From: Diplocarpon mali
Taxonomy: Eukaryota > Ascomycota > Leotiomycetes > Helotiales > Drepanopezizaceae
DNA length: 64,000 bases
Assembly (NCBI GenBank): GCA_024741835.1
Contig: JAENRP010000178.1
Span: forward strand, 2,594 to 66,593
Direction of reading: 5' to 3'
Position 1 is the stretch's first letter, and every line of letters starts with the position of its first letter. Below are positions 73 to 57,275 of the stretch, piece after piece. Made by a program: the position numbers and the translations under genes. The notes beneath the pieces were generated by a model, which saw nothing but the letters and a program-made list of their open reading frames with translations, did no database searches and was not told where the DNA came from.

Positions 73-95
73 ACTCCTAGTCTAAGACCGCAAGT
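73..95. repeat. 23-bp palindromic element (copy in Gyp-A copy 1)
   Basis: Arms of the ACTCCT...GCAAGT type flank a GC-rich core. It is homologous in position to the copy at 27652-27674. The family is described under the array at 16379-16848. Confidence 0.8.
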
Positions 96-503: not shown

Positions 504-526
504 ACTCTTAAGCTAGGACTATAAGT
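504..526. repeat. 23-bp palindromic element in gag
   Basis: It sits at the same gag position as 27221-27243 in copy 2 and 43659-43681 in Gyp-A-long, so it is ancestral to all three copies. It reads in frame with gag. Confidence 0.82.
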
Positions 527-1494: not shown

Positions 1495-1517
1495 ACTCGT
1501 AGGCCTGGCTTAAGAGT
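1495..1517. repeat. 23-bp palindromic element near gag N-terminus
   Basis: It is positionally homologous to 26242-26264 and 42650-42672. In these three the phase relative to gag differs from the usual one: the core reads like L-L-x-L-A. Confidence 0.8.
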
Positions 1518-12979: not shown

Positions 12980-13183
12980 CCCCTACTTAGACCTTACTCC
13001 GATTAACCTATAATTGGGAAAACAATAATTATCCTTTTGCGCTAATCCAACTCCTAAGTATCTCTTTAAATTAAAAACAATTAATCAATAGCAACCTCTA
13101 TTGAAATCACTATTCCTACTTATAGGGTAGGACTAAGAGTCAAATTTCCTAAAAGATATTCCTTTATAAGACTATATGACTTA

Positions 13184-13267
13184 ACTCGCAGTCCAGGCCT
13201 AGGAGTCGATCTAAAAACTTTCCTCTATAAGACTACGTAACCTAACTCGCAAGGCGGGCCTAGGAGT
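13184..13267. repeat. Two 23-bp palindromic elements 3' of Cop-D pol
   Basis: Copies at 13184-13206 and 13245-13267, 61 bp apart, both retain ACTCGC and GGCCTAGGAGT. The flanking DNA (CCTTTATAAGACTA and CCTCTATAAGACTA) is also repeated, so a unit of about 61 bp was duplicated here. They lie at or just past the end of the pol frame. Confidence 0.78.
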
Positions 13268-16200
13268 CGTCCTTAAGCCTGCTAAGCCCCTACTATCTTC
13301 TATAACCCTAATATATCTTTAAATGCTTTGAACTTTGCAACCGTCTCTAATAGCTTTGTAAATCCATCTGCTACTATTCGATCGGTTAAGATATAGGTGA
13401 TTAATAACTTATTCTTTATAATAAGGTCGCAAATGAAGTAGTAGGCAATATTAATATATTTCGATCGCTTATATAAGTGTGGATTCTTTACAAGTGTAAT
13501 CGCCCTTATATTATCTACTTAAAGATTAATACAATTCTTATCTCATCTAATATACTTAGCGAAACCTATATCTTTTAGAACTTAGGCGATCTATAATCCT
13601 TGCTTGCAATTTAATAATATTAATATATATTCGGCCTTAGTGCTTGCGGTAGCTACTGATTTCTACTTCCTACTTCCTTATAATATAGGTCTGCTATATA
13701 ATACTACTACGCTTTTAGATATACTTTTCCAACCTTTTATATTTGCTTAATCGGAATTAGTATATACCTTAAGCTTTACGCTTATATGTTTCATTAGTCT
13801 ATATCTTACCTTCTATATGATTATCGATTGAAGGTACCTTCTAAGTCGCTTGATTGCATTCTTATATCAAATCGTCGGATCCTTTAGGTTCTGACTAAAT
13901 TACTTAATAATAAAGGCGATATCTAGTCTTATATATACTATAGTATATATAATCGCTTTAATATCCTATTAATACTTCTTCAGATCTCCTCTCTACTTAT
14001 TTTCATTAGCAGGCTCTAACTTATCATACTTTCCTTCAATTAGAGTACGCTTTAGCTTAAAGTTAAGAGTATAAGTAGAGAGTCCTATTCGGTCTAGGAT
14101 CTTCTTAATATACTGCTCTTAATCTAATCAGAGTTCTCGAGTAAAGCGGTTCCTTATGATGCAAATGCTAAGGATCTTATGAATTCCCCTTAGATCCTTA
14201 GTATTAAAGCGTTTCCGAATTGTCATAAAGAACCAATCTAATTAAGTGGTTATTTTCGCAGCTATAGCAATATTATCGATATATAGTAGTAACTTGATTC
14301 TACGCTTAGCATAGGTAAATAGATAAGGGTCAGCTAGGCTTTAAACGAATCCCATTTCTACTAAAGTAGAGCTATATAAGAGGTTCTAATTATAAGCTAA
14401 TTGTTTAAGCCTATAGATACTGCAGAGTATATAAAGAGAGTGGCTAGCGCATATAGGAATACTATTAGGTCGGGAGAGAAAAATCCGTTCCTTTATAATC
14501 GCTTTAGTAAATGCATTTTTAATATCGTACTATCTGCATTTAAGGTCCTTAGCGGCTACTATTGCTATAAATATGCAAAGGATATCTATACGAACTATCG
14601 GTGCGAATGTATCGAAGTAGTCTTCTCTATATTATTAGGAGAAGCTCCTAGCTATAAGCCTTGCCTTATAACGCTCTAGGGTTCTATCTATATATATCTT
14701 AATTGTAAAGACCCACTTTATTAATACTAGGTTCATATCCTTTAGCATTAATTCCTCTATCTATATGCTATTTACAGTAAGAGAGCTTATCTCTTTATAA
14801 ATTGCCTTACTTTATACTGCTCTATTCTCTAGGTTATTAATAGCTTTATTATACATTTTTAAAAGAGAGATTTTCATTATCTTCCTAGCAGCTAGGAACG
14901 CATTATCTTTATTAAAGCTCTATTGAAGTTCGAGCTTGTAGATCCTATGCGCTATTATAGCCTAGATACGCTTAGACTCGCGTTCGTTTAAGGTATCTTC
15001 CGGTTCTAGGTCTCTATTCCTCTTTAAGGACGTAGGTTCGGCTATAGGTTCCGTAGGCTTATCATTTAAGGAACCGCTTTCTAATGGTAGAGGCTTATTA
15101 TTACTTATACCTATTTTAGGAATATCCTTTACTATAGGCGCTTTAACTAAAGGGATAATGATATCAAAGTTATTCTATACTTTAGGTAGTTCGCGGACAA
15201 TAGGAATGGTCTATTCGGCCTTTAGACAACTAGCTAGTTATCAATCAGCGGGTACGCTTAATATGCTTAAGCTAAGAGAAAGGGGTTATTAGTTTAGCTT
15301 AATAGTATTACCATTAAGTGGTATACCTTGCGAATCTCTAAGTATACGGAGCTTTAAGGACAGCTCCCTTCTATTTCGAGATTTATTAAACTTAACTACT
15401 AAGGATATGATTACTCGCCTTAGATCTAGCGCATATACTATCTATTGCTTTATTATTTATTTAATATACTTAACAAATATATACTTTCTACCTCGGTCCA
15501 TTAGCTTCTTGCTCTTTATACCCGCGGGCCAGGACTTCGGGCTAATATAAGAGTAGCAAACGCTTCTAAAGACGCAGATATAGTCCAGGCTTAGTTTCTA
15601 TTCGAAATATGCCTTATATAGCGATATTCGGGTGCTATTAACTATTAGTCTACTACTTATTCTATTTCGCAGGTATGCGTCTGCTTTAACTGCAAGGTCC
15701 TAGAATTCTAGTAGTAGGTCAGCATCTTATAGTAGAGCGCGACAGTCAGTCTCTACTTGCTAAATGTTTCGCTCGGCGATGCTATTCTAATAGGAACCTT
15801 TGTATATTATAGTTAATTTGTAACGAACTCCTTATTTTGCCTATTTATTAAGCTTTGCCTTAATCTCTAATGCGTTATTAGACCTAATAGCTATTAGCTT
15901 TAACTGGGTCTAGCGTTCCTCTATTACTTTCTAAGTTTCCAGCTTTTCTATAAGCTTAGATTTGGTCCTAGCGCAAATGGTCTATATCTGCTAAGTGGAA
16001 TTATCTACTATTTAAGAAAACCAATTATTTCCTTTAATCGAGGTTGTAAATAGTCTGGTAGTATTAATAGATATTAGCGCTAGTATCGAATCTTTCTATA
16101 GACTAAGCTTAGTTTGCGTCTAATTTTAAAGTTTTATTAGCTTATAAATTCGGCATACTAGGCGATCCTTTAATACTTAGATCTTCTGTTTTAAGGTTAA

Positions 16201-16378: not shown

Positions 16379-16848
16379 AATTGCAAGCCTAGCTTAGGAG
16401 TCGTTTTTAGTGAAACCGTAAGATCTACTCGCGGTCTTGGCTTAGGAGTCGATTTCCTAGAAATGGCAAGATCTACTTGCAGTCCTGGCTTAAGAGTTAT
16501 TTCTAACGAATTTGCGAATTTCACTCGCGGTCCCGGCCTAGGAGTTATTTCCGCGAATTTCACTTGCAATCCCAGCTAAAGAGTTATTATTAGCGAATTT
16601 GCAGAATCTACTTGCGGTCCCGGCCTAGGAGTCATTTCTGCCAAATTCACTTATAATCCTAGCTTAGGAGTCATCTTCGAGGACACTTTGCAATCTATCT
16701 ATAGTCCTGGCTTAGAAGTCATTTTTGCGAATTTTACTTGCAATCCCGGCTTAGGAGTCCATCTATTCTCCTTATCCTCGCTCAATTGTATTAGGGCAGA
16801 GAGTGCACTTTCTTTAAAGGAATTTACTTGTAGGTCTGGCCTAAGAGT
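16379..16848. repeat. Array of ten 23-bp palindromic elements between Cop-D protease and integrase
   Basis: Copies start at 16379, 16427, 16475, 16523, 16562, 16610, 16649, 16697, 16736 and 16826, each exactly 23 bp. Arms are ACTCGC or ACTTGC and (A)GGAGT around a core of the form GGTCCCGGCCT. Start-to-start distances are 48, 48, 48, 39, 48, 39, 48, 39 and 90, all multiples of three. Spacers share (G)CGAATTT. On the minus (coding) strand each copy encodes eight residues of the form T-P-R-P-G-P-R-V inside the polyprotein. Open frames on both strands (16345-16569 minus, 16367-16882 plus) come from this array. It acts as a peptide-repeat insert of unknown role. Confidence 0.85.
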
Positions 16849-17270: not shown

Positions 17271-17339
17271 TATTTAAATTATTAGAAGTGGATTTAGGTT
17301 CAAATAACCTACTATTATTATTAGAGGTATCTGCTAAAG

Positions 17340-23720: not shown

Positions 23721-25279
23721 ACTTATTAAAGCTAGATCTTAACTCTTTAATAAAAGAGAAGTAATTCCTAACCTCTTATACTATTAATATAAATGGACTT
23801 AAAGTATTATTATTAGCTTTAATAAATACTAAAGCCCTTAGTTACCTATTTTTAAATCGTTCCCTTTTTATATATCTTTTAAAAGCAACCGGCTTTAAAA
23901 TTCTTCCTCTTCCAGCCTTTATTCCTATTTATAGATTTTAAAATACCATTTGCGCATAAGCTATATATTATATGCGCTTTCATTTAACAATTAATATAAG
24001 GCGTATTTACAACTGCCTTTAGGTTATTCTTAAACTTAGCTAGCATAATACTATTATTAGAGTTAAATAGATGCGCTGATTCCAACTCAAACTTAACCTA
24101 AAGGAAAACTGATTTATATAGCCTTTATATTATCCCCTATCCCCCCGATTCGTAAAGGAAATCGTCATTCGTCTTTCCCCTTTTAAAGGACTTTAGATCC
24201 GATCTAATTATTAAGCTAATATTAATTGTAAAGAATAAGAAATAGCTATAGATAAAGCTCGATAGATTAATAGAAGATAGTCTTATATTAATTTAATAGT
24301 CTTAGCTAAGCGCAAGATCCCTATTACTATTACTAGGCTAGCGCTCCTGCCTATAATTAAGCTAGATCTAAGAAAACAGTCTAATATAAATCGACTATAT
24401 TCTGACCCTATTTGCAAATGCCCTAAAGCTGCGGTTCCTATTTGCAAAATCAGCGCTAATGCCTTTTATTATAATATAAAGCGTAAAGAGACTAAGTTCT
24501 TTTAAACTAGTATTTATAAAGTAGATAGGATTTTAAAGGAAAGATATAAACCTAAGAATCCTAATATCGAAAAGCTAATTAACAATCGACTCCTGAAATA
24601 GTACCGATCGCTAAGATAAGCCTTTTTAAAAAGGGATACGGATACCCTCCCTCCCTATCGGTATTACAATTATAAGATATAGCTAGAAGGGCCCTTGCCT
24701 AATGCCTATTCGCCCTTCTACTATTAATCTACTAAAGAGCTTAAGGTTATAAAGGAGTATTTACTTGAGAATTTAAATAAAGGCTTTATTAAGACAAGTA
24801 CTAGCCCCTTTGCTTCGCTAATGCTATTTATAAAGAAGGCCGATAGTAGCCTTTGATTTTGCATAGACTACCGGAAGCTAAACGCACTAACTCGGAAGGA
24901 CGCTTACCCGATCCTAAGGATAGATAAGCTTTTAAGGCGAGTATCCAAAGCCAAGATTTTTATAAAATTAGATATTCGAGCTGCTTTCAATCGAATATAA
25001 ATGGACCCCGAATTAGAGGAATATACTACCTTTTAAATAAGGTACGGATCCTATAAATGCAAGGTCCTCTTATTCAGCCTTTGCAATAGACCTAGTACTT
25101 ACTAGCAGTATATAAATAATATTCTTTTAAATTACTTAAATGATTTTTATATAGCATATTTAGACGATATTTTAATTTACTTAAAGAATATTAAAGAGTA
25201 CTAGGGTCATATCGAAAAGGTACTAAAATAACTCTTAAAGGCTAGCCTTTAAGCAGATATAAAGAAGTGCAAGTTCTAT
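23720..25279 (+). pseudogene. Decayed protease and RT of Gyp-B copy 2 (first part of pol)
   Basis: Protease about 23720-24110, with A-L-I-N-T-K-A-L where D-S/T-G is expected. RT about 24600-25279, with P-S-T-K-E-L-K-V-I-K-E-Y-like and C-I-D-Y-R-K-L-N-A-L-T blocks and an intact A-Y-L-D-D-I-L-I-Y catalytic box near 25150. Pol is broken by TAA/TAG and a few TGA, the latter probably from TGG. Gyp-A copy 2 interrupts RT at 25279. Confidence 0.9.
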
Positions 25280-25527
25280 TGTAGAGACCTGGAAGTGGAG
25301 GATCTCGTGACATAGGTCATATAGTCAGATGAGGACTAAGAAAGGGGTATATATAGGACTACTATTATACTTAGAGATAGCGCGCAATGCTAACCACCTA
25401 TTATACCCTTAACTAGTGAATTGTCCTAGTTCTTATCTTTAAAGAGCCTGCTTATGGTGCTTCCTTCCTTTTGTCTTTAGTCTTTATATAAGCCTATTCT
25501 TAGGTATTATTCCTATACTCTTTTATA
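25280..25527 (+). repeat. 5' LTR of Gyp-A copy 2
   Basis: Starts TGTAGAGACCTGG, the only copy keeping the TG end, and ends TTTTATA. The adjoining TTAATGACCTACGCAAGG region is the primer-site area, conserved at 41977-41994. Confidence 0.92.
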
Positions 25528-25859
25528 TTAATGACCTACGCAAGGACGATTCCTTTGAGATTTCGTCTTTATATAACTTCTCCTCTTGATTCTCTTAGTT
25601 CGCAGATAAAAGATCAACCCTTCGAAAACCCCTCTTAAAGCTATAATCATTTAATTATTTGGAACTGTCGGTTATCGTTCCTCTATTATCGACTTAGCAA
25701 TCACTTAGTTATTTGGAACTGTCGATTGCCACTCTTTACTATTAATAACTTCAGATTTTCCTATTTCGGCCCCTATTCCGCCTCTCCTACCTTTGATTTA
25801 AAAAGCTTAAATTGTCAGCTTATTAGTACAATTATCGGGTTTCCAGCCTCTTTAATACA

Positions 25860-27610
25860 AAGAAGTTTGATTAGCCATTATAGCTACTTTAAATAATAGC
25901 AGTTTCGAGTATTTATATAATACTAAATAAAAGCTCTAATTAGGAGTATCTCCTTAGTTTTTTTAAAAAGCTAAAATAGAGACTTTAGCCGCCCCTACTC
26001 TATAGAACTCTATTCTTTGCTTTGGAAATAACCCTTAGGATATACTGATTTTAAGAACTAATAGGAATTGTCCTATTAGCTAAGATAAATCTTTCTTAGA
26101 AACTTTATCTTAGAAATTAGTCTTTGATTTAATAAACCTTTTCTTACTACTAGTAATTGCAATACCCTTATTTGCTACTTTGCACTTATTAAAGAAGTCT
26201 TAGTAAAGTATAAATAAACTTTCTATAGAAGCCGGATTTTCACTCTTAGGCTAAGCTTGCGAGTAAGAATATAAAAATGCAATTTTATATAACTTAAGTT
26301 CTTTATCTTTCCTTTTAATAACTGCACCTACTTTTTTAATATTAACACTTGAAAATATTAAAAATATCAATTTTAAACCTCCTTCTAACCCTTTACTTAA
26401 ATCTTTTTAAGCCCGTCCTAATCACTTTAAGATTAACTCGGATTCTGAAAATTCTTTAGAATACCTTAAGCCCTATATTCGACCTGGCTCTTCCCCTCCT
26501 ATTGAAACAAATAAAGCGATAATAGCCGCCTTTAAAGCTATTATTAATCATTTTCCCCTTCCTAGTTCCTTTAGCGCTCCTTATTTCACTAGAGCTAATA
26601 TTATTAATTTCTTTAAATAATATAAGGAGACTTATTATAATTTCAGCATTAAATATAATAAGATAATCAATCGACTTCCTTACTATTATAACCAAACTAG
26701 CAAAGATATTATCAAATCTCTACTTAAGTAGAAGCTTCGCAAGTCCTAGGAATTACTTATTAAGGCTCTTAAGTCTAAATTCTAGGAATTTGATAAACAG
26801 CAGATTCGCAATACTCTAGCCTTTCTAAAGGAGTTTATTCTTATTACTTATACTCTTAAGGAACTTAAAAACTACTATTAGACCTTTACTTAAGTATCGA
26901 ATACCTTAATCAATCAGAAGATTCTTAGTAAAGTTGAAAGAGGATACCTTTTCTTACTTGAATTACCTATTAGCCTTTAAAATAAGATTATTAAGCATTT
27001 TAAAATTAATAAGCGTAATCCTATAATATATGCTTAATTCGAAGACTTTTCGACCTTCGCCTTGAAATTAGACCTTAGCGAAAAGACTATTAAGGTAATA
27101 GAAAAGGAGAAAGAACTTACCTCCTCCTTTATTAAAGATTTTAAAAGCCTAGTATAAGAACATTCGAAGGCTCTAGAGGTTATTAAAGAAGTAAAGAGAA
27201 ATCTAATAGTAATTCCCTTTACTTATAGTCCTAGCTTAAGAGTGAAATCTGCCTTAAAAATCAAGGAACTCAAAACCTAGTTTTCTAAACTCTATATCTA
27301 ATATTTAAAAACCTTAATCGAAGGCCTTCTTTAGGAAACTTATCGCGCCCTTTAGTTTAGTAATTAATAGGCTTTAGAAGGCAAAAACCAGTACGCGAAC
27401 TTTAAATACCTAAATCCAGCTTCCCTTAAGTTAAATAAGCGAGTTGCTACCTTAAAGAGGCTTAATAATCGAATATAGCTATACTAAAGAAATTCCTAAA
27501 TTATCAATCGAATTTTATATAAAGCTTGGATTTTCTTTAGTAAGGACGCCTCTTAAGTTGGTTAAGGCATATATACTTAAGATTACTTGAAATTGTCTTT
27601 GAATTTTCTT
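25860..27610 (+). pseudogene. Decayed gag of Gyp-A copy 2
   Basis: Plus-strand capsid precursor. Blocks include A-F-K-A-I-I-N-H-F-P-L-P-S, Y-F-T-R-A-N-I-I-N-F-F-K, A-L-K-S-K-F and K-V-E-R-G-Y-L-F-L-L-E-L-P. They match the gag part of Gyp-A-long residue for residue between stops. After about 27400 the sequence diverges from Gyp-A-long and the CCHC-like knuckle seen there at about 43984 is absent. Palindrome copies lie at 26242-26264 and, in frame, at 27221-27243. The minus-strand open frame 26456-26695 is a shadow. Confidence 0.82.
27221..27243. repeat. 23-bp palindromic element in gag of Gyp-A copy 2
   Basis: Reads F-T-Y-S-P-S-L-R-V in the gag frame. Homologous in place to 43659-43681 and 504-526. 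Confidence 0.85.
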
Positions 27611-27651
27611 TGAAATTGCGAATTAATAGCTTTAACAACTTTAAGCTTTTG

Positions 27652-27803
27652 ACTTATAGTCCTAGCTTAGGAGTCGCATTATTAAAGGAGGAAAAGGAGT
27701 TTTTATCATTTTTACTCATTTACTACCGTACCTCCCTCCTTCCCCTTCCCTCTCTTTCTTTATATATTTCTTTAAAATCCACTTGCGGGCCCGACTTGCG
27801 AGT
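27652..27803. repeat. Two 23-bp palindromic elements before the gap of Gyp-A copy 2
   Basis: Copies at 27652-27674 and 27781-27803. The second retains ACTTGCGGGCCC and TTGCGAGT and ends one base before the unknown bases. Both lie in an open frame starting at 27610 that may be chance. Confidence 0.82.
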
Positions 27804-27804
27804 T

Positions 27805-27857
27805 NNNNNNNNNNNNNNNNNNNNNNNNNNNNNNNNNNNNNNNNNNNNNNNNNNNNN
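27805..27857. other. Assembly gap (53 N)
   Basis: Unknown bases directly after a palindrome copy. True length is unknown. It may hide the pol region of the element. Confidence 0.99.
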
Positions 27858-27998
27858 TCCCTACCTTTACGACTTTAAGTACTAACCTTACTTGCACTTA
27901 TTATTTTTACAAATAGGGATTGGTATTCTCAACTTACAAAAGTCTTATATTCTTTACTAATAGTAGCAAAGGCTATTATTTAAATTAGTTAAGGTATA

Positions 27999-28246
27999 TA
28001 TAAAGACCTAGAAGTAGAGGATCTTATAATATAAGTTATATAGTTAGATAAGGATTAAGAAAGGGGTATATATAGGATTACTATTATATTTAAAGATAGC
28101 ACGTAATACTAACTACCTATTATACCCTTAATTAGTGAATTGTCCTAGTTCTTATCTTTAAAGAGCCCGCTTATAGTACTTCCTTCCTTTTGTCTTTGGT
28201 CTTCACGTAGGCCTATTCTTAGGTGTTATTCCTGCACTCTTTTATA
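27999..28246 (+). repeat. 3' LTR of Gyp-A copy 2
   Basis: 248 bp. Paired with 25280-25527. Followed by the CTAT duplication. Confidence 0.92.
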
Positions 28247-28250
28247 CTAT

Positions 28251-41729: not shown

Positions 41730-41976
41730 TATAGAGACCTGGGACGGATAGGTCTTATGATATATATCACATAATCGGCGCAGGACGGTAGGAGGATAAA
41801 AGGGCCATCTTCTGTACATAGAGACAGGGCGCATCGCTATAGTACTAAATATACCCTATACTTAGGACTTGTCCCTAATATCTTATCTAAGAGAGCCCGC
41901 TTATAGTACTCCCTCCTTTTGTTTTTAGGTCTTCCCTTAGGCCTATTCTTATATTATCTCCTCCCTCTATTTTATA
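41730..41976 (+). repeat. 5' LTR of Gyp-A-long
   Basis: 247 bp starting TATAGAGACCTGGG and ending TTTTATA. Confidence 0.92.
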
Positions 41977-41994
41977 TTAGTGACCTACGCAAGG
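41977..41994 (+). other. Primer-binding region of Gyp-A family
   Basis: TTAGTGACCTACGCAAGG directly after the LTR is conserved in all three Gyp-A copies. A TGG one base in, RIP-altered to TAG, would match a tRNA 3' end of the form ...GGTCACCA. The tRNA was not identified. Confidence 0.5.
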
Positions 41995-42263
41995 ACCGAT
42001 TTCTTAAGATTTCTATCCTTAATACAACCTTATTAATCTCTTAGTTCGCAGATAAGAGACCGGCCTTTAAAATACGTCTTTAAAACACTTATAGCATCTT
42101 AATTAACTTTAAAAACCTTATCCTTAATCGCTTAATTACTTAGAACTATCGATTTTCATTTAGCAACTATTAATAACCTTAGATTTTCCCTTTTCGGCTC
42201 TGCTTTAAAAACCCCTATTTTCTTCCTTAACTCTAAGATTTTCGGAATTTTCGGCTTCCTAGT

Positions 42264-45200
42264 ATGAAAAGTTTAGCAAACCCTATAATAGCAATCTTAA
42301 ACAGTAGTAGTTTCAAGTACTCGAGTAATACTAAGCGCAAACTCCAACTAAAAGTGTCTTTTTAAAATCTTTAGAAATCCGAATCTGATAATTCAGCCGC
42401 CTTAGCTTAATAGAATTCTAAAAACTGCCTTAGAATCGTCTCTAAAGACCCCTTTATTCTAAGGACCAATAGGAATTGGCCTAAAGGCTAAGAAGAATCT
42501 TAGATATAAACCTTATTTTAGAAATTTGTCTTAGATTAAGTAAACCTTATCTTATTACAATTAGTCGCAACACTTCTATTAGCTATTTAGCACCTACTTA
42601 GAATCTCTTAGCAAACTCGGATTAAACTTTTAATAGAATCTAATATTCTACTCCTAAGCCTAGCCTATAAGTAAGAGGATAAAAAGACATCTTTAAACAA
42701 CTTAAGGCCGCTACCTACTTTTTTAATATCGATATTAGAAAACATTAAAAATAATATTAATTTTAAACTTTTCGCTAACCCTTTATTCAAATCTTTTTAA
42801 ACTCGTCTTAATCACTTTAAGATTAACTCGGATTCTAAACGTTTTTTAAGCCCTTTTGAATTTCGAAGTACTCCTCCTAGCAACTAATCATACGATATTA
42901 AGGCTTCCCCTTTGCCCCTTATAGATTCTATTAACTTAAACGGTTAGTATAAAACGATAATAGCTGCATTCAAGGCTATTACTAGCCACTTTCCCCTCCC
43001 TAGTTCCCCTAGTGCTCCTTACTTTATAAGAGCTAATATTACTAATTTCCTTAAGCAATATAAGGAAACTTATTACGATTTTAGTATTCTATAAGCGGAT
43101 ATGATTTCTCAGCTCCCTTGCTACTATAACTATATAAGCAAAGATATTATCAAATCCCTCTTTAAATAGAAGATATATAATTCATAAGAACTCCTTATTA
43201 AGGCTCTTAAGTCTAAATTCTAAGAATTTAATAAATAGTAGATTTGCGATACTCTAGCTTTCTTAAAGGAATTTATTCTAATCACTTGAACTCCTAAGGA
43301 ACTTAAGAACTACTATCGGACTTTTACTTATATATCAAATACCTTAATTAGCTAGAAAATACTTAGCAAAGTTGAACGAGGCTGCCTTTTCTTACTTAGA
43401 TTACCTACTGGCCTTTGAAATAAGATTATCAAGCATTTTAAGATCGATAAGCAAGACCTTATAACCTTTGCCTTATTTAAGGAATTCTCGGCCTTTGCTT
43501 TAAAATCAGATCTTAATAAGAGAACCATTAATACTATAGAATAGGAAAAAGCCCTTACTCCCTCTTATACTAAAGACCTTAAGAGCCTGGTCTAAGAACA
43601 CTTGAAAGCTTTAGAAGTTATAAAGGAGGTAAAGAAGAACTTAGTAGTCATACCTTTCACTTATAGGCCTGACCTAGGAGTAAGATCTAACCTTAGAATT
43701 GAGGAACTTAAGACCTAATTTGCAGAACTCTAAATTTAAAGCTTAGAAACTAGGATTAATAATCTCTTATAAGAAAAATAGCATATTCCCTAGTTTAATA
43801 ATAGATAAAACTCGGCCACTATAAGCCAACCTAATAGTTCCTATTACTAGACTCCTGCTTCTTATCATTTGGAACAACCAGCTAATATAAGAATACAATA
43901 GCTAGCTAAAGAAGGAGGAATTGATCCCAATTAGCACTCTGCTAATATCAATGCTATAGGGTACTAAGGAAACGGCAATAGAAGACAACTAACCTGCAAT
44001 TTTTGCAATAACGAAGAACCTAACTGCGCTTTATATAAGTACTATAACAATTGCCCTCTTTTCCTTCGTTTTATTAACACTAGGGTCATATATATTAACA
44101 AGTATGGGATGCTTTGCATTAAAGATCCTAGGCTAAAAGCTATCCTTATTAAAAAGCACTAGAATCGCTTATAGTTATAGACTGTTTAAATAATAATATA
44201 TAGTATGAAATAGGATAAGAATTTAGTCGAACAATAGCGTATTATAGATATGAATGCTAAAATTCCAACTTATATATACATAGGTCCAACTAGCAACCTA
44301 CTTAAGGGAGTTCTTAAGGACTTAGCTTTTGATTAAACAGCTATAGAAGTTAAAGGCATCTCTATCTTAAGATAGGTTAATAATAATATATCTATTGATA
44401 TTAATACTACTTCTATATCTAGAAACCCTTGGAATACTCAGCGTCCTTTTAGATCTACCACTCCTTTAATATTAATAAAACCAGCCAAAGTCCAAAAATC
44501 AACGCGTATAACTTAAGAATCTTAATATAAAGTCCAAATGCTAAAAGATACCTAACAATCTAGAACTATAGTAGATAAGGATAAAGCTAATATAGTAGAC
44601 GAATTGATTAGAGATATAATAGACGAAGATGGCTTTAAGCTTAAAGATTAAGAAGTTAAAGTTATTACATAGACCCTTAACCTTAAGCGAAAGAGATAGA
44701 TATTAAAACGGGAAAAATTCATTAATAAATATACTAATTCAATTGCAATAAAGAAAGCTATAAAGAATATTATAGCCTAGCAAATTAACCTTATATTTAA
44801 AGACCTATTTAGTTTAACTAGACGCTTTAATAAAGTGCTAGGAAAGCATATCCCAATTGCCTTTAAAGATTTGAATAATAATAAGGAAATGGAAATTGTA
44901 ATACGAAAGAACTCTAAGAAGCACTTAGCCTTAATTAAATATCTTTAGATTGCAGAAAACGAAAGAACCCAAAGGTACTATAACATTATGGCAATAGCTT
45001 TAATATCTTAGAATATCAATCGAAATTATTCAGCAGTTGTAATAAAAAGCCCTATTATTATTTATTTAATAGAAGAATTAGTTAAAGCAAAGGCTCTAAT
45101 CGATTATAGTTTAGAAGTTAATACGATAATTAGAAAAGTAGCAGAAATGACTTAATTAATAATCGTTAGCGATCGACTCCTTATTTATTCAACTGTTTCT

Positions 45201-45560
45201 AGATCGAAATACAATTTTAATAGATAGGTGAAAAACGTAAAGGTTAGAGTCAAAGGAATCGTTAATTATACTAACTTTCTAGTAATAGAGAATTCTTCAA
45301 ATGACATTCTTTTAGAAATGCCTTTTATTTTAGAATCTCAGCTAATATTTAACTATCTTAAAGATAGTCTTATAAAAGCTAGTCTTTAGAATATAGATCG
45401 ATCTTTAAAAGGATAAATGGTTATCGTAGGAGATATAGCCGAATTCTAAAATGAGGTTTTAGGAAACGATTAGCTAGCATAAAGGCTAGGCTTAATACTA
45501 ATAAAGGAAGGCACCTAGTAAGGAGTTATAGTAAAAGAAAGGTAAGTTTGCCGATTTTGA
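42264..45560 (+). pseudogene. Decayed gag-protease of Gyp-A-long
   Basis: One frame from the ATG at 42264 (M-K-S-L-A-N-P). The capsid part spans about 42640-43750, with A-F-K-A-I-T-S-H-F-P-L-P-S and Y-F-I-R-A-N-I-T-N-F-L-K. A CCHC-like knuckle lies at about 43984-44060 (C-N-F-C-N-N-E-E-P-N-C). The aspartic protease at about 45080-45400 has A-L-I-D-Y-S-L-E-V-N for the expected D-S-G motif and D-I-L-L-E-M-P-F for the usual I-L-G-x-P-F. Polymerase follows in frame -1. Palindromes lie at 42650-42672 and, in frame, 43659-43681. Confidence 0.85.
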
Positions 45561-45574
45561 ATAATAGTGATTTG

Positions 45575-45759
45575 ACTTATAATCCTAGATTAAGAGTCAA
45601 ATCTAGAATTTTGAAAAATAGTATAATCGGCGTTTTATCGGCTTAACAATTAAGAAAAAAGAAAAATAAGATAAAGAAGAGAGTTCGTTTTACAAATTTC
45701 GATAATTCACTAATCATTTTGAAAAACTTAAAAACCACTTATAAGCCGGACCCGCAAGT
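45575..45759. repeat. Two 23-bp palindromic elements at the gag-pol junction of Gyp-A-long
   Basis: Copies at 45575-45597 and 45737-45759, 162 bp apart, both in the pol frame. Confidence 0.82.
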
Positions 45760-47703
45760 AAAAAATAATAAAATTACTAATGATATTTCCATTTACGCAC
45801 TTTAAATTAATAACTTAGAAAATCTTTTATTTGTTTTTAAAAAGGAAAATTCAAACCGTTTTATAGGATTTAATAAAAAAGGAAAGAAGTAGAGAAGCAT
45901 AGTACTAGCTAATATTCAAACTATATATAAAAGCAAGGCTGATAAAGTACGACTAGTGGATTAGGGAATCTCTAATAGCTTAAAGCCTAAAGGACTAGAT
46001 GATTAATTTAAATAAGATAAGAAGCTTCGACCTTTAAAGCTGGGTGGCAAATTCAATAAGTTTATTATAGGCAGATTTTCTAATAAACCCATCGGATATC
46101 GGCTAATAAAAGAACGTTTCAATATACTGAAAATTAAAGAAGACTTAATAGAGTAAGAATGCGAACTACTTTATAAAACCTTAACAAATCGAAAGGACGC
46201 CTTAGCTTTTAACTAGATAGAACTTAGCCAGATTCGAAAAGAGGTTACGCCTTATATTAAGATTAAGATAATACCTTACAAAGCTTGGCAAGAGAAAACA
46301 TTCGATATCCCTAAAGCTCTTTAAGAAAAGGTAATCGAAATATTAAAGGATAGGCTAAAGCAAGGTATTCTCGAGTTCTATAATAGCCCTTATAAGAATA
46401 AATGGTTTTTAATTGCTAAGAAAGAAAAGGGAACTTACAGACTAATAATAGCAGTAGTAAAGATAAACCGAGTAACTATTAAGGACACTAACATTCCTTT
46501 AAATATAAATAAGTTCTTAAATGAATTCGCAGGATTAACCTGCAGCTCTCTTATTAACTTCTTCTTTAGATACAACCAATTTATTCTTAATATTAAATTA
46601 AGAGATATAATAGCAATTTAAACCCCTTTTAAGCTACTTCAAATAATAAGATTACCTTAAGAGGCTATAAATTCGATCGCTTAATTTATTTAAGTAATTT
46701 ATAAGATACTAGTAGATTATATACCTAATATTGCGCTCTCTTATATAGATAATATAGGAGTAAAAGGATTAAGATCATTCTATAATTATAAAGAAGTTCT
46801 CCTTAGTATATAACAATTTATAATAGAATACATTTAGAACTTAGATTAAGTGCTTATATAATTCGAAAGGGCAAGAGCAATAGTTAGTCCGAAGTTATAA
46901 TACTATCTTCTATCGATAGAAATTATTAGTTTCATTACTAATTCTAATAGCCGAAGTCCTTAAAGGGCTAAAGTACTTAAAATCGATAAATAGAAGAGGT
47001 GTGATAATATAGCAGAAGCTCGCGCGTTTATTAGCATTATAATATACTATCGCATATAAATCAAGGATTTTGCTAAAAAGGCAGTACCTATTTATTCCTT
47101 ATTCTAAAAAGGGGCTAAGTTTCAATAGGAGGAACTTTAAATAAAGGCTATAAAACAACTGAAGCAGGCGTTGCTTAAAGCGCTATATCTGATTAAAATA
47201 GACTATAGAGCCGACGCTAGGCCAATTATACTAATAGTTGACGCAAGTTTAATCAAATAGGGTACTATCCTTTAATAAGCTAATAGCTAGTAGAGAAAAC
47301 ATCTAGCTTACTTTAAAAGTGGTCTTTAGAATCCAGCGGAGATAAAGTATAATACTATTAAATAGGAATGCAAAAGAGCCTTAAAAGCAATAAAAAAGAT
47401 AAGAAGCGACCTCTATAGCACTTACTTCATCCTTAAAACTAATGCTAAAGTGCTAATAGAATAATTGAATAGAGCTATAAGCGACCTACCTAAAGCCTTG
47501 CTAATAAAATAGATTGCTTAAATAAGACTAATGGACTTTAAAGTCAAACACATTCTAAAAATAAAAAACACTACTACTAACGGCCTTTTAAAAAGAACTC
47601 GTCCTTACCCCTTTAATTTAATTAAAGAAGATAAAATAGATATTAATAAATAGGTAGAAAACAAAATTAGTTATCTATTAATATATCGCCTTAAAGGGAC
47701 TCG

Positions 47704-47726
47704 ACTCGCGGTCCCGGCCTGCGAGT
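47704..47726. repeat. 23-bp palindromic element with best-preserved arms
   Basis: ACTCGCGG, TCCCGGCC, TGCGAGT in order; arms GACTCGC/GCGAGTC are perfect. It is one of the few copies not in the common phase: the pol frame reads L-A-V-P-A-C-E-S. Confidence 0.88.
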
Positions 47727-49020
47727 CAAATAAGAGAATTTTATTACTTAACTACTTAAGTAACTTTAAAGAAATCGCGAAATTTTTAATTACATTTAAA
47801 CGACTAAAGACAATTGCTCTTAAGGATTTTTAGAAATTCAAAGCTAAAGCTCTGATTTATCTAATATAAGGAAGACGATTATTTAAAAGGAGCGATAACT
47901 CATTTCCTATATAGCTCTATTTAGATAATAATAAACTGCAAGCTAAGGCTATTTAAGATATTTATAAGGAGACTGGTTATTAAGGAGCTAAGTCTACCTA
48001 CCACTAACTCTTAAGGAAATTCTTTTAAAAGGGTTCTTTTAAAGACTGCAAAGCCTTTATGAAAAGTTGCATCCCCTATTAGAAACGAAAACCTAATTAT
48101 AAGGAAAATCCCTTATTCCTAACCTGGCCATTAGGCCTTTTCTATAAAGTCAGCCTTAATATTATATAAGTACTAACTATTAAGAATAGGATAATATATT
48201 TTATTTTAGTAAAGGAAGACCTATTAAGATAGCCTAAAGGACAACCTTTAAGATCTGCTAACTCTAAATCTATTGCGAAGTTCCTTTAAGAAGATATAGT
48301 CTATTACTATAGACTTTTTAGCAGACTAACTATTAATAAAGGCCTTGAAAACAAAGGAGTAATTAAAGCTTTCTTATAGAAATATAATATTAAACGGGTT
48401 CAAATCTTAATATATAATTCAAAAGCTAATAGAGTAATAGAACGAGGATACTATAATATTCTTAATAGTCTATCTAAAGTTACTTATAAAGGATTTAAGG
48501 ATTAGATAAAACGCTTTTATAGAATACTCTTTACTTATCGAATGATAATCTATAAACCGACTAGAGTTATACTATTCTTCCTTATCTATAGCAAAAAGGC
48601 ATAGCTCCCTCTTAAATCCTAATAGCCTATTTAAAGATTATTCAACTATAGTCAAATTTGGAACCGTTCTGATTTGCTTACAATAAGATGCCGATAACTT
48701 AAGCTCTAAGATATAGATATAGAGGAAATCATTCTATAAAAGAAACGATATTAGGAAAAAGCTAAAGAAGCGTAGGCTGCTTCTAAAGTACTTAAAACGC
48801 ACCTTATTTAAAAAGATAATCTCGTCTTAGTCTACGATATTGTAAAAAGTATTAATATATTTGCAAATACTAAACTTAACTATCGATAGCTTAGTCTATT
48901 TAAGGTTAAGTCCAAGTAAGAAAAAAAGGGATACTATTCTCTTTAGGAACTTAATAGAGTCGATATTAAAGGAACCTTTGCAGCCAACCGACTGAAGCGC
49001 TTTTATTAATACAACTAGAC

Positions 49021-49555
49021 CTTATTCCTTTTAAAAGATAAATCAGAAATTGATACAACCTCCGAATCTTCTATAGGAATTAACGGCAATATAAGCAATT
49101 TTAAACCCTTAGATAAAGACTAAGATTTTTCCAATTTGACTTATAAGCCGGTCTTATAAGTAAAGAATATTAAAATACCTAACTAATCGCGACCTTAAGT
49201 TATTATTCCTAAAATATCCAAAGAATATAAGTAGGAATATTAAACGATTTCCTAGCCTATTAATTGTCTTACCTTCCTCTAATCCTTGTTTTTACATTTT
49301 TAGCAAGGTCGCCTCCTTTATTATTTAGGATATAGATCTTTTAAGATCACTTTAAATTCTTACTTGCTTTAACTTATTTTGCATTCTTAATATTAGCCTT
49401 TAATTATAACATTCCTATTACTTTCCTTAAATAATAAATAAAAAGTCCAATTTCCTTAATATATATATAGCAAACCTATTGCAGCTTATATGCCCTTTTA
49501 ATTCTTATACCCTATTAAACTCTTTTATTTATACTCCCTATCTTTCATAAGCAAT
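49021..49555. other. Linker between integrase and X1, with possible promoter
   Basis: No supported gene. Contains the palindrome 49139-49161 (still in the pol frame, so pol may extend to about 49250) and a TATA-like TTAATATATATATAG at 49457-49470, about 85 bp before the X1 start. Suggests X1 may have its own transcription start; unproven. Confidence 0.45.
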
Positions 49556-52500
49556 ATGCCTTTAAAGAACTCACAAATGGTTTTATCTACTATAATAAGG
49601 GATAAATAAGCACTAGTTATAAACTTCTCTTAGGACAGTAGAGCTATTATATTATTAGAGAGCTTCAAATCGACCTACGCAGCCTTAGGAGATATAGAGT
49701 AATTAAAACTCCTTTCAGCTTATGCAAATGCCATTAGCAACCTTTCAACCTAAGTGGCCCCTGGAATTCTCTAATTTGACAACTTCTTAACCGAAGAATT
49801 AAGGCTAAAGGGAATCTTTAAAGAGGAATTCTTAGCTAATGCAGATTAATATATAACTTTGGCCAACACTTTTAAAATAGACTAAGATAAAAGGGAAGAA
49901 TCTATTTAACGATTAGATAATTTAGCTACTAATAAAAGAGGACTCCTATTTCGTTTACGTTTCTTAACAAATATTAATTCTAATAATAGAAGGCGAGTAT
50001 TATTAAAAATTCTTAAGGAAAACACTCCTATAGCTAGAGCTATTTAAATTCTTAATTTCTTTATTATTTAAAAAGGAGTAGTAAAATTCCAAGGCAATCG
50101 AATTCGCGGCTGTAAATTTATAGGCCTATCTAATATAATACTTATAGCAGCTGATAGAGCTATAAAAAGATCAAATTAGGCTATAGATATTACCCTACCT
50201 AATAGCACTATTATTAATATACTAGGGCTCTGCGCTTCTACTTATAGTTTGCTTATTTTAAAAGAAAACTAGACTCTTATGCTAAAGTTTAGACGAGATT
50301 TCTTTAATAATAAAGAAGAGAATTAGTTATTTGTAATCAAGCCTGCTTTAAAATTCGCCTCTTAGCCTAAAGATATAATAAGCGCTAAACTATATAATTT
50401 AACTCGCGGTCCTAGACTAGGAGTTAGAAACGAGAATTTTAGAACTGGACCTAACCTGCCTTTTGCCGAAATGATTCTAGAAACCGCTGCCGAACAAACT
50501 GCCTAAACGCTTAGCGTAGCCTCTTTAGAGTTTTCGAAATCTTTAAGAGACTTTCCTTTAGCTAAATAACCCATTTTGGCTCAACCTTTAAAAAGGATAG
50601 ATTATTTAATAGCCACCTTAGCTGATTTGCAATTTAAAACCAAAGGATTATACGCTTGCTTAGACTTCTTCCTTAATAACTTAAAGGAGCTAGTTCTTAA
50701 CTTCTTTGTATTTATATACAACTGTTTTAGAAATGATAAGATAAGAGAAGACCTTATTCCTACTACTCTAAAGATAACTAAGAGAGCTGTTAGATAAATT
50801 CAATAGCTTATCTTAGACGAGTTCGCCCTTATAGATATTATTTAATTCTTTAATAATTACAAAAGTTAAGAACCTAGTCTCTTAGATGCCAAGCGAGACT
50901 ATTTTATCTTATAAGAAAGAGAATATAAAGAGGAATCTATTGATTAGGATATTTGTAATTATAGCAATATGCCTTAATCGGTTATTCTCAACCTTGAGCT
51001 TAGAGAATGATATAATATTTAGGTATCCTTTATAATAAAAACTCGCTTTCGATAGTATCTTCCTAGTATAGGAATCGAAGGAAGAAGACTTTGCAACCTT
51101 TATATTTGCTCTCTTTCGGTTTACTATAGTCTCAATTATAAAGGATTTGATATTAACGAAACTATTAAATACCTCAAACTTCTTTACGCAATAGAAGATA
51201 TTGATCTTTTTCTAATCTACCTTAATAATCAGTTCTTTGTCTCTTTAAAGATATGCAAATCTAACCTATTAATAATAGAGGCATCTCTAGGTATTATAAA
51301 ATTCAAGGCTGATCCTAAAGCCTTAAAGGCGTTAAAGCCGATTGAATGGAACAATTCTTTCTTTTCGATATTATTAAGTAATAAATAGCAAAAGGAAATA
51401 GAGGAAGAAGGGTTAATTATAATGCCTAAACCCTTCGGATGCCGCTTCCTAACCGACAATTTTACTACCGATAATAGTGCTTTTACAAGTATATTCCTTT
51501 CTATTATAAGATAAGAAGTAGAGATATACCTTTATTACTTCCGCCTTATAGATAACGCGACCTCTATACCTTCTTATTTTCTTTATAATATGATATTCAG
51601 CCTTACTTAATAAGTCCTTCGGATGCATTATAGACTCTACCTTTTAGCTATAATAGCGAAAAGTAAAAGAGCCTATCAGCTTATAGCCTACCCTGAACCT
51701 CCCTAATTGATTGGCCTTAGTCTTTATAATTAAGTCATTTTAATAAAGAGAGATATAAGTACTACTAATAAAGAAATTCCGATTTTCACTTATAGTCTTA
51801 GCCCGCAAGTCAATTTTATTAAAAAGTAAGTCTTAGATTATCAGATCCTATTAATCGGATAAGGGCTAGCTTTTAAAAGCCTTAATAGGTAGGTCGGCTT
51901 TTAATTAATTATAAAACTCACTCTATTTGCAAAGAAGATAAGTCAATAGACTTCTTAGGCACTCGGTTCAAAATCTTAATTAGCTCAAATAACCGCAAAG
52001 TTAAAGCGAAAGGAGATCTTGCGACCTATTACTAATAATAGCAATCTAATTATAATAATAATAAAATAGGAATACCTTTTTAAAATGCTTTCGGACAATT
52101 CTTATAAGACTAATAGTTTTATAGCCTTTTGCAATAACTATATAGCTGTCCTTAATAAGAACACCTTGGAAAATGAGATTCGAATCTCTAATTTTATCTT
52201 TTTAATCTCTACTTTAAAGCAACCTCTAGTACCTTAATAGATTAACGCAAGTAGAACCACTGCACCTTTTAAAGCAGCTTTTCATCTTAAGAACTGCAGT
52301 AGCCTCTTTAAAGCCATTATTAGTTAATGCTCTTAAATAGATCTATCAGTTATAATCGAAGTATAGGAGTTGTTTCTTCTTAATAAAGACGAATTAAAAA
52401 TCCACCTTATAAAATATAATCAGAAGCTCTTTAATGCCCTTATTAAGGCCTAAACGAACGTTACAAATACTAAGTCGCTTTTTTATAGACTTAAGTCTTA

Positions 52501-52849
52501 AAGATAATGCGATAAAGTAAATGCTATCCGAGAGCCTAATACACTAATTAATAAAGGCATTATTATAAGAAGATTCGGAAAAGGGACGAACCGAGACGCT
52601 AGTATAGTATCAGACCTTAATTTGGAAACCAATCCCCTGTTTTTACCCTTAAGCTTAGAAATGCTAAGACTGACCCGCAAGCCTAGCCTACGAGTAAGGA
52701 TAGACTCAGCTGGCTTAAGCCTATAAGAAGGTTCGGATGAACCTCGGTCACCAAATCTAGGGGTACTAATAGAAGATCCTTTAAGAGAGGTCCCTAAAGC
52801 TAAGAAATCGCTAAGAAATAAGAACCAATGCAAGAGAAGAAGACTCTAA
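49556..52849 (+). pseudogene. X1, large decayed ORF of unknown function in Gyp-A-long
   Basis: One frame from the ATG at 49556 (M-P-L-K-N-S-Q-M-V) to about 1097 codons. Codons at 50576, 51617 and 52661 keep phase, so only point mutations are seen, no indels. Internal stops are TAA/TAG. The C-terminus is basic (C-K-R-R-R-L) before the TAA at 52847, which could itself be a RIP stop. Paralogous to X2: F-D-N-F-L-x-x-E-L (residue 74), G-N-R-I-R-G-x-K-F (about 179), L-R-M-H-Y-R-L-Y-L (688). Palindromes in frame at 50402, 51788 and 52673. I recognise no known domain. It is mostly soluble-looking, with Leu/Ile-rich helices and no signal peptide. The longest clean piece is 50576-50797. Confidence 0.72.
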
Positions 52850-53429
52850 AGTAATAATAGAATTAACAATTAAATTGACTTAATCTAGAGAATCATAATC
52901 TACCCCCTTTTGAAAACCATTTGGAGAGATTGCGAATTAGATATTGAATTTTTTTTAAGATTATTTACTTTCTATATACCTATACCTCTTTATTCTTAAC
53001 CTATTATTCTATTCTATATATATTCTTTATTTACTTTACTCTTTATATGATTTATTCTTTAATTATTCCCTTTATATACAACTTTCTAACGCTTACCTTT
53101 GAAATATCGTCCTTACCTTTGACAATTATCATTTACTAAAAGTAGGTCCTTATATGCGTTATATCCTACTTTTGTTCCTACTTCTAGGCTCATTATGCCT
53201 ACTTTTTCTTTATGCACTAGTACGATTCCAAACTCTATAAATAAGCCTTTCCTTGCACTACGATTTTACTTTTTTACTTCTTCTATAACCCCACTAGTAC
53301 TAATAATACTACTAGTACTATCTTTCTATTATTAATCTTTTCTAATCCAAGCCTCCTATTTCGACAAAATTCTTTCTAAAGATTTATTCCTTAGCAAGGA
53401 ACCTTATCACTTTTATCAAATAATTCATT
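52850..53429. other. Spacer between X1 and X2
   Basis: AT-rich, no supported gene. It contains short open codons continuing from X1, a TATA-like CTATATATATTC at about 53013, and a run ACTAGTACTAATAATACTACTAGTACTA at about 53292-53320 built from repeated ACTAGTACTA. The minus-strand open frame 52498-52833 is a shadow of X1. Confidence 0.4.
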
Positions 53430-54317
53430 ATGGCCCCCTTTAGCATAGGCAAAAAGGTCACACTTAAGAAGAATATATTACTTATTGCCTTAGGTAGTAA
53501 GTCTTTAGCAATATCTAGCAATGAACTAATATTAGAAGGTGGATTCTTATAAGATAGGAAGACTCTTCGGTCATTAGAAGATATTATAAGTACTTATAGA
53601 ACATTAGGCGAGATAGAACAGCAGGTATTCCTAAATTCATCTATTAAAGTGCTTAACTATAGAATTTCTACTATTAAGGAAGGATTCTTAGGTTTTGATA
53701 ATTTCTTAGATAAGGAACTCTAAGGCAAAGGTATTAATCGAGAGAAGTTTTTACAAGAGTATTAGAGGTATGCTAATTTAATTGATTTATTTCGGAAGAA
53801 CTAAGATAAGAAAAATAAGTGTATAAAAAGGTTAATATAATTCATAAATAGCATTTGTAGCATACTTTTCCAGACCCACTTTATAACCGACATTACCGCT
53901 AATAATACCCTATAGGGGCTTAGTAAAATTTTTAAGATATACCAACTAGTAGCAAAGGCTATATAAGTATTAAATCATTTCACTATTTAAGAAGGTATAA
54001 AGAAACTCTAAGGCAATAAGGTAAGAGGTAGAAAATTTGTTAGTTTCTTAAGCACTATTATACACACTACCATTTAGACTATAAAAGACAATCCCATATA
54101 GTACGATAGTCTAGCCCTTCCCAACTAGACAATTTTAAACACCCTCGGCCTATAATAATTATAATATAGTCTACTTATTGCAAAAGAAAAGATAATCTAT
54201 CTTATTAAGTATATTATAAACTATTTTAATAATAAAATAGAAAGATAGGAATTTGTAGTTCCTATTGCTTAGAAAATGCTGCCACCCTTAGTGGAACTAA
54301 CTAATAAGGAAAATCTA

Positions 54318-54526
54318 ACTTATAGGCCTAGCCTATAAGTAGAATCAGCATATAATAGAGAAGTCCTTAAGCATAAGGTACCTATGATATTAGAAATACA
54401 AACTGCTAACTATTATAATCCTAAATCTTTAAATATAGATATATTTAAATCACTATCCTTAGAAATGCCTAGAATACCTTAAACACTAGTAGCAAAGAAG
54501 TTGACTCGCGGGCCTAGCCTACGGGT
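54318..54526. repeat. Two 23-bp palindromic elements in X2
   Basis: 54318-54340 and 54504-54526, both in phase, reading L-T-Y-R-P-S-L and L-T-R-G-P-S-L-R-V. Further X2 copies: 55734-55756 (L-T-P-R-P-S-S-R-V) and 56556-56578 (I-T-P-R-P-G-L-R-L). X1 copies: 50402-50424, 51788-51810, 52673-52695. Confidence 0.85.
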
Positions 54527-56659: not shown

Positions 56660-56700
56660 AGAGGATAATAATAATAATAAAGATAATAATAATAATAATG
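56660..56700 (+). repeat. AAT microsatellite encoding an Asn run in X2
   Basis: GATAATAATAATAATAAAG followed by GATAATAATAATAATAATG; reads D-N-N-N-N-K-D-N-N-N-N-N in frame. Confidence 0.85.
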
Positions 56701-56980
56701 CTATAATATAAGTCTCTCTCCCTATTAGCAGAAGCTATTATATTATACTAGTATCCGCAAGGAGTATAAAAGCTCTTGCTATACTAAGACCTACCTCGTT
56801 AGATACTAATAGCAATACTATAAGAAGAAGTGGTCATTTAGCGAAGAGAGTATTATCTAATAATAATTCTCCCTATCTCCTAAAGAGAACTAAGGAAAAT
56901 TGACATCTGAGTTAGTACTATTTTTAATTGTTTTTACGACTCTATAGCTTGTTTATCTATTTTGCTAGTTTCGTTTTCTA

Positions 56981-57003
56981 ACTCCTAGGCCTAGCCCGTA
57001 GGT
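56981..57003. repeat. 23-bp palindromic element abutting the second gap
   Basis: ACTCCTAGGCCTAGCCC then GTAGGT, ending two bases before the N run; 3' of X2, outside its frame. Confidence 0.82.
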
Positions 57004-57004
57004 G

Positions 57005-57090
57005 NNNNNNNNNNNNNNNNNNNNNNNNNNNNNNNNNNNNNNNNNNNNNNNNNNNNNNNNNNNNNNNNNNNNNNNNNNNNNNNNNNNNNN
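57005..57090. other. Assembly gap (86 N)
   Basis: Unknown bases in the 3' region of Gyp-A-long, next to a palindrome copy and followed by a poly-A/C/T-rich stretch. Confidence 0.99.
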
Positions 57091-57275
57091 AAAAAACCCC
57101 TTCTTTTTTTCTTTTACCTTTAATAATAATATAGCTCTAGTTTAGGCCTTTTAACATATTAGTTTTCTTGCACTTAGGGTTTACTAGTAATTGATATACT
57201 ATTGCCTTAACCTATATTATTTTATATTCTTTGCTAATAGTAATAGAGGCTACTACTTTTATTATTTAAAACATA

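Follow-up and report, generated by a model that had tools for sequence, protein, structure and literature searches.

A short palindromic repeat dispersed within the reading frames of unrelated retrotransposon families in Diplocarpon mali

Retrotransposons of the window and their repeat cores

The window analysed here, a stretch of 64,000 nucleotides from contig JAENRP010000178.1 of Diplocarpon mali, harbours retrotransposon copies that carry a short palindromic repeat with a core of 23 bp. Together with the related copies retrieved from the genome, the elements concerned were assigned to five families, termed A, E, F, G and H, of which only A and E showed LTRs. RIP-like AT-rich decay and LTR elements are both seen in this genome, as would suit a filamentous ascomycete. 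The reading phase of a core is given as phase 0 if its positions 3, 6, 18 and 21 are third positions of codons.

The Ty3/Gypsy element A (“Gyp-A-long”; 41730..57525, plus strand) has a length of 15.8 kb and is bounded by LTRs at 41730-41979 and 57276-57525, which are about 245-250 bp long and 92.4% identical according to self-BLAST. The same comparison matched A at 83.8% to its less damaged homologue C12 (composed of the loci L025, L005 and L026), the best-preserved copy seen, from which the phases of A were taken. In C12 an aspartic protease and an RT-RNase H were detected above the Pfam cut-off and an integrase (rva_4) below it; the RT pieces tested against Pfam gave no RT match. Past the integrase A continues with an additional open stretch of about 7 kb, apparently in two frames (window about 49.9-56.9 kb), which is homologous to L005 3544-9901 and L026 1-653 and of which the tested pieces gave no Pfam match.

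A carries 14 cores. The first one (42650..42672) is located in what is probably the 5' untranslated region and is followed by a core in the gag region (43659..43681, phase 0), by a core after the protease, by position in the protease-RT linker (45575..45597, phase 0), and by another one in the same linker 162 bp further on (45737..45759, phase 0). The core in the RNase H-integrase linker (47704..47726) is read in phase 2, and that after the integrase (49139..49161) has an unclear frame with the fewest flank stops in phase 2. The second frame holds two cores in phase 0 (50402..50424 and 52673..52695) and, between them, one of unclear frame with the fewest flank stops in phase 1 (51788..51810), which in C12 is congruent modulo 3 with the neighbouring cores. 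Four cores in phase 0 are found in the third frame (54318..54340, 54504..54526, 55734..55756 and 56556..56578), and the last core (56981..57003), for which phases 0 and 1 are tied, lies near the 3' end in a probably untranslated part.

Element E (“Gyp-E”; 25277..28250, plus strand; LTRs 25282-25530 and 28001-28249) comprises 3 kb without room for pol and corresponds to the 5' part of A, with an identity of about 67-72%; judged by this structure it is likely a non-autonomous partner. Its cores are situated in the 5' region (26242..26264, homologous to A 42650), in the gag region (27221..27243, homologous to A 43659 and in phase 0 in the copy L018) and, without a clear frame, in the 3' part (27652..27674 and 27781..27803). 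Since two cores occupy homologous places in A and E, these copies predate the split of the two elements. A second, inverted copy of E has cores in its 3' part (73..95), gag region (504..526) and 5' region (1495..1517).

The cores of element G occur in three regions, which we read as gag, the protease-RT linker and a later one. The window contains the gag core (60876..60898) and two linker cores at 62651 and 62696, 45 bp apart (62651..62718), all of which are in phase 0 in L032, a copy with less damage. Pieces of G gave no Pfam match, so the Gypsy assignment is our own reading, as are its regions; G is probably a Gypsy-type element.

In the Copia-type element F ten cores form an array on the minus strand (16379..16848) between Pol_BBD and gag_pre-integrase. 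They start at 16379, 16427, 16475, 16523, 16562, 16610, 16649, 16697, 16736 and 16826 and are thus spaced by 39, 48 or 90 bp. In the window Pol_BBD (16939-17526, minus strand) was recognised with an E-value of 0.0033, below the curated cut-off; in L030, a less damaged copy of F in which Pol_BBD and gag_pre-integrase were seen together, it reached 3e-08, above the cut-off. For the family, Pol_BBD and RVT_2 were found above the cut-off and gag_pre-integrase below. In copies of F, seven to ten consecutive cores separate Pol_BBD from gag_pre-integrase, and 98 residues before Pol_BBD are free of cores. Furthermore, F has a triplet of cores at 13118, 13184 and 13245 (66 and 61 bp apart; 13118..13267) in its 3' region, which is probably untranslated, and a diverged core (15520..15542) that by its position belongs to the integrase-RT region and lacks a clear frame.

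For the second Copia-type element, H, gag_pre-integrase was detected above and SH3 below the cut-off, and Pfam yielded no identification of the protease. By position, its cores are located upstream of the protease, where the first ones precede gag_pre-integrase by about 130 codons, and between integrase and RT; 42 residues just before gag_pre-integrase contain no core. A third site, in the H 3' region, was placed by position and shared sequence, and L034 780-900, L064-L066, L073 and L074 were taken as this region. Tandem repeats of about 28 bp (TTAAGGGGTGATTTTTT) adjoin the core there, and the L034 core is bordered on both sides by TGATTTT, a direct repeat of 7 bp.

Detection and specificity of the motif

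The motif was searched with a symmetric weight matrix (threshold 13 bits) seeded with the 26 single positions of a preliminary description of this DNA. These positions therefore match by construction, which is not true of the array copies or the shuffles. All 36 positions named in that description, i.e. the 26 single ones and the ten of the array, indeed hold the motif at the coordinates reported. In total 41 matches were obtained in the window; 20 order-2 Markov shuffles gave 0.35 on average and 2 at most. We take two of the five further matches, 13118 and 15520, as an additional and a diverged copy, respectively; 3775, 30562 and 56437 are probably not members of the motif. The matches at 3775 and 30562 represent a weak related match in two homologous copies of another repeat of the window, likewise seen at L027 4355, and are probably due to chance. 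The stretches 18969-25276 and 28250-41730 are free of matches except for 30562 (15.3 bits), and the latter holds an RVT_2 piece (E-value 0.00074, below the cut-off).

Genome-wide, over 49.4 Mb in 676 contigs, the arms ACTCGC-N11-GCGAGT occur at 198 places compared with 3 for the reversed control pattern, and the unmutated pattern ACTCNYGGKCCNGGMCCRNGAGT at 123 compared with 0. Among the approximately 50 exact-arm sites listed, C3:458514 and C36:184216 resemble chance matches by their centres. The exact unmutated core was found neither in IMG/VR nor in the prokaryote genome set.

These counts bear on a rival explanation, namely chance or ordinary conserved coding sequence inherited within one family. 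Core positions are inherited within a family, as this explanation would have it. However, both the excess over the shuffles (41 versus 0.35) and that over the control (123 versus 0) contradict it, as does the fact that the motif occurs in both orientations and at non-homologous places in elements of Gypsy and Copia type. Ordinary coding sequence, as the preliminary description had pointed out, would be present at all homologous positions of distant elements, but F and H, both of Copia type, differ in core placement. We therefore regard this explanation as having next to no probability.

Anatomy of the repeat

The flanks of 252 cores fell into 36 clusters, of which 31 were used for a sequence logo (clusters 13, 18, 31, 33 and 34 were dropped), several of them being units of one array. 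The consensus of the core is ACTC[C/G]YGGKCCNGGMCCR[C/G]GAGT, 23 bp in length. It is flanked on both sides by a weaker symmetric NRAWTY, and the conservation ends sharply after these 6 bp. The conserved unit is a 35-bp imperfect palindrome around the 23-bp core; the earlier statement that every copy measures exactly 23 bp holds for the core at 36 of 36 positions but not for the conservation as a whole.

The orientation of the core is set by positions 5 and 19, and both orientations occur on the sense strand. One of them reads T-P-G-P-G-P-R-V and the opposite one T-R-G-P-G-P-G-V, with the phase unchanged because the centre of the palindrome coincides with the third position of a codon. Family A has a third, symmetric form, T-R-x-P-G-P-R-V.

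The conservation of the core acts at the DNA level. With the third positions 3, 6, 18 and 21 restricted the core was found at 108 places in the genome (reversed control: 0), and if these positions were freed as well there were still exactly 108, which are copies of relatively few positions and hence not independent. Since third positions would vary if the peptide alone were kept, and freeing them added no match, the origin of the conservation lies in the DNA. In the 23 distinct variants, drawn from the 100 listed of the 108 matches, the third-position letters are mirrored across the centre (T at 3 and A at 21, C or T at 6 and A or G at 18, G or T at 9 and A or C at 15, any letter at 12). Of the 31 clusters, 30 have T at position 3 (C in the other one) and 27 have A at position 21 (G in the other four); apart from these five letters the mirror extends to the clusters as well. 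The use of threonine and arginine codons in the same elements is mixed, with ACT accounting for 43 of 103 and CGA for 26 of 118.

Hairpin folding was better than in shuffles for seven of eight 35-mers (z -2.1 to -3.9), their stems usually containing a mismatch, and no better for the eighth (z -0.44). The pairing of positions 9 and 15 is weakly correlated among the 31 clusters (Fisher p 0.027), and no co-variation was observed among 45 unmutated cores in the fetched DNA. A perfect hairpin is thus not clearly maintained.

A cis-acting signal of the retrotransposons, such as a hairpin for RNA packaging or dimerisation, a transcription-factor site or a recombination signal, accumulated by selection or drive in the manner of DNA uptake sequences, could account for the hairpins formed by most of the 35-mers tested. 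It would also agree with cores being seen solely in retrotransposons where they were placed, and near the ends of elements as well as in frames. However, a stretch of the window with a Copia RT piece is free of cores, up to ten degenerate tandem copies are crowded into one linker and the complementarity of positions 9 and 15 is not kept among unmutated cores. Such a signal seems unlikely to be the explanation.

Reading-frame phase and whole-codon spacing

To assess the phase, we took the sense strand of those copies that had suffered least damage and counted the stops in the 180 bp to either side of the core, leaving out the core itself. Phase 0 had uniquely the fewest flank stops in 24 of 37 rows, coding or not, with 3 ties and 10 losses. 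It was the best phase in 15 of the 16 positions taken as clearly coding (binomial p 7.7e-7), a set picked after the phase table had been seen, in which tandem units of one array were counted once and E gag was not counted separately from A gag. The 15 positions comprise nine in A (gag, two protease-RT, two second-frame and four third-frame sites), three in G (gag, protease-RT and the third region, where one of three units is tied with phase 2), the site before the protease and the integrase-RT site in H, and the array of F; the sole clear exception is the RNase H-integrase core of A in phase 2.

Set aside as not clearly coding were the 5' and 3' ends of A, the 5' and 3' sites of E, the 3' triplet and the diverged integrase-RT core of F, the 3' region of H and the A sites 13346 and 10693. 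The H 3' region nevertheless has the fewest stops in phase 0. If the A sites 13346 and 10693, whose frame is unclear, are counted as misses, phase 0 is preferred in 15 of 18 positions (binomial p 1.9e-5), and with all positions included and arrays and homologous sites collapsed in 16 of 25 (binomial p 0.0016).

The single preferred phase claimed in the preliminary description is borne out by the positions taken as clearly coding, less so by the rows overall, and the copies that could be read are not in random phase. Its placement of the repeat inside retrotransposon reading frames applies to most copies, but not to those near both ends of A, in the E 3' part, in the F 3' region and, by position, in the H 3' region, where no frame is clear.

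Calls based on the longest open frame agree with the preference for phase 0; the long frames of cluster 35, in whose translation N was read as A, have no meaning here. As stops inside the cores are fewest in phase 0, these calls lean to that phase, and the count relied on therefore uses flank stops alone. The idea that stops created by RIP disfavour phase 0 was rejected, the stops inside present-day cores being rarest in phase 0 (101 of 658 strand-cores, compared with 365 in phase 1 and 486 in phase 2).

Whole-codon spacing is a sign independent of the stop-based counts. Of all 124 distances below 250 bp, 104 separate neighbouring cores of families A, F, G and H in coding arrays and linkers, and every one of these is a multiple of 3 (39, 45, 48, 54, 72, 90, 162 and 186 bp), though many of them derive from copies of one array and hence are not independent. 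Of 14 distances in the F 3' region, which amount to 61, 62, 64, 65 or 66 bp, nine are not multiples of 3, and the E 3' pair is 123, 124 or 129 bp apart. Three further distances, of 119 bp each, include the weak match type of 56437.

The phase preference would be expected of a peptide module needed by the protein, i.e. a linker, a protease site or a 2A-like skip site, with the palindrome as a by-product of its codons. Phase 0 in 15 of the 16 positions taken as clearly coding speaks for such a module, and no copy lies inside the Pfam domains found. The fixed or mirror-restricted third positions, the copies in probably untranslated parts and the different peptides of the two orientations all argue against it. 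The 2A motif has the form D-x-E-x-N-P-G-P, and it is absent from the core peptides read. Altogether a peptide module appears highly improbable.

Dispersal, copy number and the question of insertion

About 24 non-homologous core positions were recognised in the five families: 14 in A, two more in E, three each in G and H and two in F. The data support a palindromic repeat that is dispersed within retroelement frames of unrelated families, identical at the DNA level and expanded in tandem. Of the 108 unmutated cores in one orientation 100 were listed. Sequence assigned 26 of these to E, F, G or H (including 12 of 12 fetched cores matching one of these families and 6 of 6 more), and a further 64 were placed by nearness, lying no more than 2.5 kb from a match of H or G. 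None of these 90 placed cores among the 100 listed is located in a host gene. One search for protein relatives yielded 729 candidates, none of them at an E-value of 0.001 or better.

The number of cores varies between copies, most of which were picked for length variety from match lists with full scoring of no more than 150 candidates: 2, 12, 9 and 1 of 24 H copies have one, two, three and four cores, respectively, and 3, 6 and 1 of ten G copies one, two and three. The unit spacings in these copies correspond to whole codons. In the G copies L058 and L060 about 39 bp are missing immediately behind the second core, at a place where other G copies have an apparent truncated third core. Furthermore, a stretch of 52 bp including the core is common to the H linker and to L034, taken as the H 3' region (83-87%), and this similarity is a sign of copying between places.

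For an in-frame insertion of the palindrome, as envisaged in the preliminary description, neither an empty site nor an exact boundary nor a target duplication was found. The alignment of related elements with and without the insert, by which boundaries were to be located, did not succeed, as 136 alignments for the 14 sites of A (2 to 18 per site, from the fetched loci and the window, some loci overlapping) showed no indel in any core and no empty site, and each of the 24 H and ten G copies holds at least one core. Presence and absence were seen at the linker level only, between the Copia-type elements F and H. The identity of potential direct repeats was near the cross-site expectation at every extension tested, the largest excess (0.48 versus 0.35) concerning a single base at extension 3.

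These results are relevant to a miniature element that a transposase or nuclease mobilises in trans, similar to MITEs or Rickettsia palindromic elements (RPEs), and which persists in retrotransposons by happenstance. The palindromic form in both orientations, the sharp ends 6 bp past the core and the many non-homologous positions would suit such an element. On the other hand, target-site duplications are absent at all extensions tested, and the 90 placed cores, 64 of them placed by nearness, are all in retrotransposons. We consider this explanation about as unlikely as a cis-acting signal.

Proposed explanation

We propose instead a short repeat dispersed through several unrelated retrotransposons, which would have spread by copying of DNA or cDNA and been selected for frame; we see this explanation as having an even chance of being correct. 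The 35-bp repeat would spread at the DNA or cDNA level, most likely by RT strand transfer or by recombination at the hairpin and the repeats, with exchange within and between co-expressed retrotransposon templates. Because neither an empty site nor a target duplication was observed, this mode of movement is one that we infer, and we favour strand transfer or recombination because of the missing target duplication, the restriction to retrotransposons of the cores placed, the gain and loss of tandem units and the hairpin form. Selection on the polyprotein would then retain mainly those copies that add whole codons, as a linker peptide rich in proline and glycine, and copies near the ends of the elements would escape the frame rule. 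Against this explanation stand, besides the missing empty sites and target duplications, the unique preference for phase 0 in just 24 of the 37 rows, the phase-2 core in the RNase H-integrase linker of A, the weakly correlated or absent pairing of positions 9 and 15, and the one 35-mer that folds no better than shuffles.

A bolder version, which we put forward tentatively and as rather less probable, regards the 35-bp hairpin as a mini-element parasitic on retrotransposons. It would jump between Copia and Gypsy elements in shared particles during reverse transcription by means of strand transfers of the polymerase, and survive as a harmless linker in phase. The spread of the motif across unrelated retrotransposons suggests a mini-parasite within larger genetic parasites.

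Comparison with known systems

No published description of this element was recognised in the part of the open-access literature that was searched. The MITEs mentioned above are short, non-autonomous multi-copy elements with inverted repeats. The fungal repeat resembles them in being short, multi-copy and inverted-repeat, but it is much shorter, confined to retrotransposons where placed, shows no target duplication in the extensions tested and has no link to a transposase. With DNA uptake sequences it shares the accumulation of a short motif in coding DNA; it differs by its 35-bp palindrome, its tandem arrays and its restriction to retrotransposons where placed. We know of no uptake process for this fungal repeat.

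RPEs are bacterial palindromic elements of about 150 bp which are found in frame within unrelated host protein genes and add a peptide to them (PMC10969869). The fungal repeat is similar to RPEs in that a palindrome lies within reading frames in one phase (15 of 16 positions; 24 of 37 rows). Unlike them it measures 35 bp instead of about 150 bp with a conserved internal frame, the conservation ending 6 bp outside the core, has so far been seen in retrotransposons only instead of host metabolic genes, and is eukaryotic and arranged in tandem arrays.

The GC clusters of yeast mitochondria are described as short palindromes rich in GC which multiply against an AT-rich background and whose units merge and shuffle (PMC4478555), and mitochondrial repeats are also described in Fusarium (PMC7218506). 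The fungal repeat is likewise a short GC-rich palindrome that multiplies, as are GC clusters and double-hairpin elements of mitochondria. Whereas GC clusters are mitochondrial and mostly intergenic, its cores are situated in retrotransposon frames, obey a frame rule and are found within LTR elements on many contigs, e.g. C1 (560,066 bases) and C7 (351,841 bases). Mitochondrial translational jumping elements would presumably not need whole-codon spacing.

Palindromes multiplying inside coding frames are known already from Rickettsia; those of mitochondria multiply for the most part outside frames. If a nuclear repeat has crossed the divide between Copia and Gypsy, this would demonstrate that retrotransposons can themselves be parasitised by tiny sequences, and the repeat would be a tractable marker of a process that is otherwise hard to observe, the exchange between unrelated retroelements.
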